Origin: Bacilli bacterium
GTDB taxonomy: Bacteria; Bacillota_I; Bacilli_A; Haloplasmatales; Haloplasmataceae
Direction of reading: 5' to 3'
Assembly: GCA_012513195.1 (NCBI GenBank)
Contig: JAAZCR010000211.1
Coordinates: 1-10,891, forward strand
Length of the DNA stretch: 10,891 bases
The notes under the pieces were generated by a model that saw only the letters and a program-made list of their open reading frames with translations, did no database searches and was not told where the DNA came from. The position numbers and the translations under genes are program-made. This document shows positions 1,375 through 3,406 of this stretch, in pieces; within the stretch, counting starts at the first letter, position 1, and each line of letters begins with the position of its first letter.

Positions 1375-2296
1375 TGTTTTCATCTCCTTTATAGATGGTT
1401 TTCTTAAACAAGAAACCATCATTAAATGGACGAATCCGAGGGATATTCTTCAACAGATTTAGATAATGTTCTTTATTTGATTTATATAATGATGGAGCAT
1501 CATAATAATCTTTAATAGCTTTCTGGTAAACTTTCACAATTTCTAGTAAAGTATCATCATCTTTAAATAAACCATCTATTCTAATAGCAGTGATGTTATT
1601 TTCAATAAAATCATCTAAATAATTAACTGTACATAAATCATACCCAGAAAAAACATGCGTTCCATGTTCATCTTCTAAAATGGGATATTTATCAGTACGA
1701 TGTTCTTCAATGAGATACAACTCTTGATTGCGAACTTCTTCTAGATTAGCATGCTTTAAAAAACGATAATAATTCGTCAATAAGTCCCGATAGGAATGGA
1801 ACATATTCATGACACCATGACCTAATACTTCAATTTCTAAACGATGTTTACTTCCGATTAATTTAATATCATCTAAAGTGATTTCTTTAGCTAAACATAC
1901 TCGTTTAATCCCATAATCAGAAAAGAAGCGCACTGTTTCATAATTTGTTATTAGGGTTTCGGGATTATAAATTAATTTCTCGACAAGGTTATATTTTCTA
2001 GCCAACCTTAAAACAGCCAAATCACCAAAGATAATCCCATCGATATCTAATGACAGTATTTCACTTAAATATTCATCAACTTCACTTAAATGATCCTCGT
2101 GAATAATTCGATTAAGAGCTATATAGACTTTTTGCTTGCGTTTTTTAACGATGGGAATAATTTCTTTTATATCAGTTAAAGTAAAATTGGCTGCTAATCT
2201 TAAACCAAAATGCTGCTCGCCTAAAATAAACGCATCACAATATTCACATCTATCAATAAATTGTTTACTTGTTGGACTTACTACTATCTCTAACAT
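1361..2296 (-). CDS. trhP1: Peptidase U32 family protein TrhP1 (YrrN-like), cysteine-poor paralogue
   Basis: This is a U32-type TIM-barrel protein of 311 residues, close to the size I recall for B. subtilis YrrN/TrhP1, the partner of TrhP2 in tRNA U34 hydroxylation. It aligns visibly with trhP2 over the first 200 residues: FGLRLAANFTL parallels FSLRARASNFTL, YGIKRVCLAKEITLDDI parallels FGAHRVVLARELSIDEI, and GHGVMNMFHSYRDL parallels the U32 signature. None of the four TrhP2 signature cysteines is kept; the region around residues 159-172 has Val, Met and Ser or other residues instead. A catalytic Fe-S site is therefore not evident, and a structural or substrate-binding role beside TrhP2 is an inference. 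Start choice: AAAGGTG lies 6 nt before the ATG at 2296. A GTG at 2305 is also in frame but lies within that ribosome site. The gene overlaps trmR by 32 nt. Confidence 0.85.
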   Translation of the reverse strand: MLEIVVSPTSKQFIDRCEYCDAFILGEQHFGLRLAANFTLTDIKEIIPIVKKRKQKVYIALNRIIHEDHLSEVDEYLSEILSLDIDGIIFGDLAVLRLARKYNLVEKLIYNPETLITNYETVRFFSDYGIKRVCLAKEITLDDIKLIGSKHRLEIEVLGHGVMNMFHSYRDLLTNYYRFLKHANLEEVRNQELYLIEEHRTDKYPILEDEHGTHVFSGYDLCTVNYLDDFIENNITAIRIDGLFKDDDTLLEIVKVYQKAIKDYYDAPSLYKSNKEHYLNLLKNIPRIRPFNDGFLFKKTIYKGDENSGSK

Positions 2297-2930
2297 GTTC
2301 TTCACCTTTAATGCTCACCGCTATACCATCACCGATATTAAAGAAGTAAGTATCATAACCTTCCATATCTTTTAACCATTCATTGAATGCTTTAATTCTT
2401 TGAATTAAACTTCTAGTACGACGATTCTTAATATAATCTTTAAAAAGTAAATCATGGAAAACGACATTATCAATAATAATTAGTCCTCCAGGTTTTACTA
2501 ATGGCGCATACTTTTCAAAGAAATTTCGATATTGACTCTTAGCTGCATCGATAAACAACATATCATAGTCTACTCTTAATTCTTTAATATCAAGTTCTAA
2601 TGCATCTTGTTCAATGAGATGGATGCGATTTTCTAAGTTAAATAAAGCGATATTTTTTTTCGCTTCCGCAATCATCAATGGATCACGTTCAATCGTGTCA
2701 ATATAAATATCATCACTTAAAAGCGCAAAATTTATCGATGAATAACCAATTGCAGTACCGATTTCGAGAATTAGCTTTGCTTGTTTTGTTCTAATTAACA
2801 TTTTGAGAAAATCTAATCCTGTTTCATCAATAATAGCCACATTATGTTCCTTGGCATATTGTTGAAGTGCGATAATGTTGTCATTTTTTGATTTTTTATT
2901 CAAGGATTCAATATATATTGTCCTATTCAT
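2265..2930 (-). CDS. trmR: tRNA 5-hydroxyuridine methyltransferase TrmR (YrrM)
   Basis: This is a class I SAM-dependent methyltransferase of 221 residues in the O-methyltransferase family 3. B. subtilis TrmR (YrrM) methylates ho5U34 to 5-methoxyuridine in tRNAs that read four-codon boxes. Visible motifs are motif I LEIGTAIGYSS (about 55-65), the acidic residue ending strand 2 in TIERD (about 79-83), the metal/SAM-site FIDAAKSQY (about 126-134), and KPGGLIIIDNVVFHD (about 146-160). The DN pair in the last motif is typical of divalent-metal O-methyltransferases. An AAAGGTG ribosome site lies 5 nt before the ATG. The upstream zinc-ribbon frame ends 14 nt before this start, and the two TrhP genes follow with overlaps. 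The hydroxylating and methylating steps of one wobble modification therefore appear to be co-transcribed. Confidence 0.9.
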   Translation of the reverse strand: MNRTIYIESLNKKSKNDNIIALQQYAKEHNVAIIDETGLDFLKMLIRTKQAKLILEIGTAIGYSSINFALLSDDIYIDTIERDPLMIAEAKKNIALFNLENRIHLIEQDALELDIKELRVDYDMLFIDAAKSQYRNFFEKYAPLVKPGGLIIIDNVVFHDLLFKDYIKNRRTRSLIQRIKAFNEWLKDMEGYDTYFFNIGDGIAVSIKGEEHVRDSSKSNK

Positions 2931-2944
2931 AATAACACCTTTAT

Positions 2945-3406
2945 TTATTGGTTATTGACTATAACTTCACCCTTACACATTGGACAGTACTTAATGTCCT
3001 TATAATCTTCATAAGGTATTTTAATAAAGCGGTCACAACAGATAAATGCGAATTCCATTAAATCATTTTCATCGAGAAATTCATCGATTCGATATTCAAC
3101 AATATCAATTTCTACTTCATCTGCATCTAGACTATCAAAGAACTCTTCAATCTTTTCGATATCGACATTTTTGCGGAAAGCAACTTTTTCTGCTTCTTCA
3201 AAGGGTATATCAAGTTTTTCTTTTCATAATAATTCTGTAAAAGTCATGAGATTTCCTTGTTCGCTACAATATGGGCAAAAGAAAGCATCATCGACATTTA
3301 AGTCTTTTGGATTTATTAAAAAGAATTTACCAAAATGATTGCACTTCATTAAATGATAACCTTCATGATCGGGAATCGGGTTTACGACTGTTGATATGAC
3401 TTTCAT
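2945..3406 (-). CDS. Two-zinc-ribbon small protein with an in-frame TGA at codon 61
   Basis: I do not recognise this gene. From ATG 3406, after a good AAAGGATGG ribosome site, 60 codons run to a TGA at 3224-3226. The same frame then continues open for 92 codons to TAA at 2945-2947. Read through, the product is 153 residues. The N-terminal part has KCNHFGKFFLINP (about 21-33) and CPYC (44-47). The C-terminal part has FICCDRFIKIP (about 121-131) and CPMC (141-144). The middle is acidic and likely helical. There is no ATG, GTG or TTG after the TGA until an ATG about 34 codons from the end, so the second half has no independent start of useful length. Options are a recent nonsense mutation, a sequencing error, stop readthrough, or TGA recoding. 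It is first in the trmR-trhP operon, which hints at RNA or tRNA-related work, but that is only context. If TGA stops translation, only a 60-residue protein (3224-3406) is made. Confidence 0.7.
3224..3226 (-). other. In-frame TGA codon splitting the zinc-ribbon gene
   Basis: The codons around the site read TTA TTA TGA AAA GAA. The frame on both sides looks coding, and no base insertion or deletion is needed to join the halves. A single substitution (TGG for Trp, or AGA or CGA for Arg) would give an unbroken protein. All other tryptophans in the window are TGG, so a general TGA=Trp code is not supported. Confidence 0.8.

Follow-up and report, generated by a model that had tools for sequence, protein, structure and literature searches.

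An in-frame TGA in a two-zinc-ribbon gene of a Haloplasmataceae-like bacterium is very probably a single-base nonsense change without a decoding role

The window, meaning the whole 10,891-nt stretch of DNA analysed here, carries a two-zinc-ribbon gene on its minus strand whose reading frame opens with ATG at position 3406 and runs to TAA at 2945–2947, with a TGA at codon 61 as its sole interruption (Table 1). An ORF of 60 codons precedes this TGA and 92 sense codons follow it, and the frame ends 14 nt from the start of trmR at 2930; both halves are coding and share one frame without an indel. The first-pass annotation had described the locus in this way, and our reading of the frame bears it out. 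With regard to its remark that no usable start follows the TGA, the frame has just two start codons downstream of the site, both ATG (codons 117 and 143), and no GTG or TTG. The gene lies between dacA and trmR, as it does in the related genomes G001, G003, and G004, and some relatives of trmR in the database bear Haloplasmataceae names. Elsewhere in the window, a DUF1292 protein (PF06949; 4452–4871), likewise found in G001 and G004, ends in a tail with runs of Asp, Cys, and His that is perhaps metal-binding, and a T-box leader (RF00230; 8069–8267) lies 5' of a gene that we take to be alaS. The Rfam scan at gathering scores placed this T-box alone in the window and no element near the TGA.

Table 1. 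Features of the zinc-ribbon locus and confirmed in-frame stops in the genome of the window, G000 (window positions, except where a locus is named).
Feature	Position	Strand	Remark
Two-zinc-ribbon gene, 153-codon frame interrupted at codon 61	2948..3406	-	97% identical to full-length P0002; orthologues in G001-G004
In-frame TGA, codon 61	3224..3226	-	8 aligned relatives: Cys 4, Arg 3, Tyr 1
Codon 25, Phe in window copy	3332..3334	-	Cys in 8/8 aligned relatives
SECIS-like hairpin 3' of TGA	3163..3223	-	33-nt spacer; 8-nt loop starting with G; not above control
trmR, intact neighbour taken as yardstick	2268..2930	-	Protein identical to database copy P0005
Confirmed stop, window zinc-ribbon gene			TGA
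Confirmed stop, cardiolipin-synthase-like (Cls-like) gene, PLD domains			TGA
Confirmed stop, LytTR regulator			TAG
Confirmed stop, NFACT			TAA
Confirmed stop, metallophosphoesterase			TAG
Confirmed stop, ABC-2 permease			TAA
Confirmed stop, gene without Pfam match			TAA
Six other interrupted genes	L062 7128, L057 13259, L142 6970, L125 12855, L120 7949, L121 3753		

A search of 5.8 billion proteins (E up to 0.001) returned two matches, P0002 (97% identity) and P0003 (79%), each a single protein of 153 residues that runs across the site with Cys at codon 61, in agreement with the earlier view that the continuation past the TGA is coding-like. The 60-residue short form gave no candidate in the protein collection, which perhaps does not include proteins that short. 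Among the genomes of 149 relatives, nine gave a match, G000 itself included; six were used for comparison, namely G001–G004 and the remote G006 and G007, and two that matched the later part of the protein only (G027 and G067) were dropped. The G001 orthologue is open across the site (82% identity to P0002), and the matches in G002, G003, and G004 extend across almost the full protein with no stop. The genome search matches in G006 and G007 were confined to about residues 8–66, and the alignment of these two at codon 61 is less sure because they are only 23%–24% identical to P0002; P0003 and G001 are one residue apart and therefore count nearly as one. The first-pass annotation had asked which residue homologues carry at codon 61, and all eight aligned relatives have a sense codon there: Cys in P0002, P0003, G001, and G006, Arg in G002, G003, and G004, and Tyr in G007. 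Trp was found at this position in none of the eight, and a stop in none of the six read as DNA (G001–G004, G006, and G007).

Eight cysteines (22, 25, 44, 47, 123, 124, 141, and 144) are present in all eight relatives and, judging from their CxxC spacing, would bind zinc. The window copy keeps seven of them; what is the first CxxC in the relatives reads CxxF here, with Phe at codon 25, a change that the first-pass annotation does not mention. The family had no match above the curated cut-offs of Pfam and NCBIfam. Its matches among solved structures were weak (best E 0.019) and included zinc-binding proteins, and AlphaFold, given three sequences, produced a poor model (mean pLDDT 41.3).

The pattern of change in the window copy is unusual. 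At family-conserved sites it carries private changes at 4 of 39, against 15 of 713 in five other window genes, those with two or three outgroups (Fisher p = 0.014), and against 48 of 1579 when the same test is run over all seven comparison genes (p = 0.034); similarly, the zinc-ribbon copy and P0002 differ at 5 of 153 positions when the stop is counted, against 0 of 221 between trmR and P0005 (p = 0.011), with the qualifications that P0002 and P0005, being cluster representatives, may derive from different strains and that both kinds of test were chosen after seeing the data. This cluster of changes in the zinc-ribbon gene fits either relaxed selection in the strain or a locally bad consensus. 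A generally error-rich contig is argued against because private changes summed over the seven other window genes show no clear excess (48 in G000 versus 44 in G001), with two dacA sites falling within the first seven residues and possibly reflecting alignment noise.

Similar interruptions occur elsewhere in the same genome. The scan of G000 covered 208,525 + 159,050 unmasked bases (367.6 kb) with a simple codon score and inspection by eye, and yielded 30 candidate stops (17 + 13): three are those of selD, grdA, and grdB, seven were confirmed against G001, and the other 20 are unconfirmed, many of them resembling gene ends with another gene next in frame. Each of the seven confirmed genes has one in-frame stop where G001 has a sense codon, with three TAA, two TAG, and two TGA among them (Table 1); the other TGA, in the Cls-like gene, falls on Gly in G001, not on Cys. 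At five of the seven sites a single base separates the stop from the G001 codon, each time through a transversion, although the cases are few and no expectation was computed. G001 has at least two single in-frame stops of its own that are absent from G000, these being the two tested against G000, both confirmed, out of 24 candidates in its sampled part, so that the rates of the two genomes are not fairly comparable; one further G001 candidate (L104) went through a Pfam scan only, with no match. In addition, the LytTR gene of G001 contains a TAA in frame at codon 18, a position that may precede its start, and a DUF3795 gene (L167 and L168; G000 contig C6, 1036–1513) gives two overlapping matches, perhaps through a frameshift, and has an in-frame TAA in its G001 copy. 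Single-base stops of several kinds are ordinary in the G000 and G001 drafts, and the window TGA therefore needs no special decoding.

The genome does have one means of decoding TGA. Contig C156 encodes tRNA-SeC(tca), selD with an in-frame TGA, selA, and selB, and TGA-containing grdA and grdB are also encoded in G000; the check for selenocysteine machinery (selC/selA/selB) proposed in the first-pass annotation was thus positive. The selA, selB, selD, and read-through grdA products score above NCBIfam cut-offs, and grdB, which matches PF07355, is split across two contigs, with its TGA on C122. This Sec locus (L019 on C156, 2463–11113, and L051, 1–615), with tRNA-Sec, selD, selA, and selB on one contig, also holds a thioredoxin reductase, a GrdG/GrdE-like gene (below the NCBIfam cut-off), grdA, and grdB. 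A literature search on selenoproteins in Haloplasma gave only one review on zebrafish gut microbes.

Reading TGA as Trp would keep the zinc-ribbon frame open, but TGA is a normal terminator here: of 113 terminated stop-to-stop frames 200 codons or longer, 19 end in TGA (among them the interrupted Cls-like gene), as does the AI-2E transporter gene of the window, and Trp is absent from codon 61 in all aligned relatives. This excludes a general TGA=Trp code, which the first-pass annotation had judged unlikely. The Trp codons themselves also speak against it: all 19 in the nine other window genes are TGG, matching the approximate count made earlier, none of these nine genes has an internal TGA, and 149 sampled genes contain 486 TGG. 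The sole UCA-anticodon tRNA is tRNA-Sec, among only nine tRNAs found in an incomplete genome. Regulated or basal readthrough, which would give a short and a long form, is consistent with two coding halves kept in frame, but we consider it highly improbable. With no stop at codon 61 in any relative read as DNA, conserved readthrough is unlikely; moreover, P0002 and P0003 are full-length, so that nothing points to a short and a long form being kept across the family. The short form would retain three of the four cysteines of the first ribbon.

Because the genome encodes Sec insertion, a selenocysteine reading had to be tested as well. Under it the window gene would be a new selenoprotein, with SelA, SelB, and tRNA-Sec reading the TGA as Sec in place of the Cys of close relatives, and the TGA does align with Cys in P0002, P0003, and G001 with conserved flanks on both sides. 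This pairing is weak evidence, however, because Cys accounts for 8 of 17 codons in the frame that lie one step away from TGA (7 of 16 before codon 61 is itself taken as Cys). Against the same reading, the site is not a conserved functional Cys across the family, half of the relatives having Arg or Tyr, and the first ribbon is already missing a cysteine; Glu and Lys occupy positions -3 and +3, so that the redox motifs CxxU, UxxC, TxxU, and UxxS, as given in passages of PMC13188914 and PMC1088965, are all absent. The hairpin sought downstream of the TGA is present but borderline. With a loop of GAAAAAGU at a spacer of 33 nt, it falls narrowly within the bacterial SECIS limits set out in a passage of PMC13188914 (-7.6 kcal/mol against an energy limit of -7.5), and it is missing from the G001 Cys gene, but among 562 ordinary Cys codons in this genome 73 have a hairpin that is just as good. 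Simple folding of stretches of other lengths after the TGA gives -0.4 to -6.6 (z -1.13 at best), and the loop lies farther from the TGA than the 18–23 nt seen in selD, grdA, and grdB. Among the genuine sites in the same control, selD (7/562) and grdB (2/562) stand out and grdA (105/562) does not, and because a genuine site scores no better than the window hairpin the control cannot reject Sec. A control with a narrower loop range, in which 34% of 569 Cys codons equalled the window, was superseded by the one using the published range. Taken together, we regard a selenoprotein as improbable, and its more particular form, a selenoprotein at birth in which the zinc-ribbon protein of a glycine-reductase bacterium has just undergone Cys-to-Sec conversion, as if anything more doubtful. 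Were it correct, the Sec might coordinate a metal or act as a redox switch next to a ribbon lacking one Cys, and the protein would be a zinc-ribbon selenoprotein, of which the literature searched gave none.

The interrupted frame, the intact relatives, the lost cysteine, and the single stops in further genes of this genome are all directly observed, and on this basis we conclude that the TGA is very probably a single-base nonsense change without a decoding role, either an error of the draft consensus or a real and recent loss in the strain. Among the causes put forward in the first-pass annotation, recent nonsense mutation and assembly error have gained support from the sense codons of the relatives, the similar stops including TAA and TAG, and the lost ribbon Cys, whereas readthrough and low-level TGA decoding are left without clear support despite the Sec machinery and the borderline hairpin. 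An error-or-loss reading has to accommodate a genome in which Sec insertion is possible, a TGA placed where the nearest relatives have Cys, the narrow-pass hairpin that the G001 Cys gene lacks, and a frame free of indels. Between its two forms, the stop in the conserved NFACT and the five one-base stops that are all transversions lean towards sequence error, while the local cluster of amino-acid changes in the zinc-ribbon gene alone leans towards real relaxation. If real, a one-base nonsense change would have struck one copy of a two-zinc-ribbon gene that is in other respects ordinary, in a Haloplasmataceae-like bacterium; translation would end after codon 60, yielding a truncated product whose first ribbon is damaged, the full-length product would presumably not be made, and the change would probably not be adaptive. 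A passage of PMC1088965 warns that, for selenoprotein candidates known from a single sequence, sequencing errors that create an in-frame TGA cannot be discounted. In the same vein, where a draft genome decodes Sec, a TGA that replaces a Cys codon in a Cys-rich gene says little in favour of a selenoprotein, and a tally of TAA and TAG interruptions across the assembly offers an inexpensive control for such candidates.

Compared with the two-zinc-ribbon family found between dacA and trmR in Haloplasmataceae-like Bacilli, the window gene shares its synteny, but it retains seven of the eight cysteines conserved in the relatives and carries a stop. It resembles bacterial selenoproteins derived by Cys-to-Sec conversion in having a TGA opposite the Cys of close relatives, Sec machinery in the genome, and a hairpin within limits; unlike them, its site is neither a conserved nor a redox-motif Cys, its hairpin does not stand out in the Cys-codon control, and the interruption is seen in one genome only, in a copy that has lost another Cys. 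The likeness is closer to nonsense-interrupted genes in draft MAGs, whether pseudogenes or consensus errors, with which it shares a single substitution-type stop, coding signal on both sides, intact copies in relatives, and several such genes in the same assembly. It differs from these in being a Cys-rich gene in a Sec-decoding genome, hence its selenoprotein-like look.
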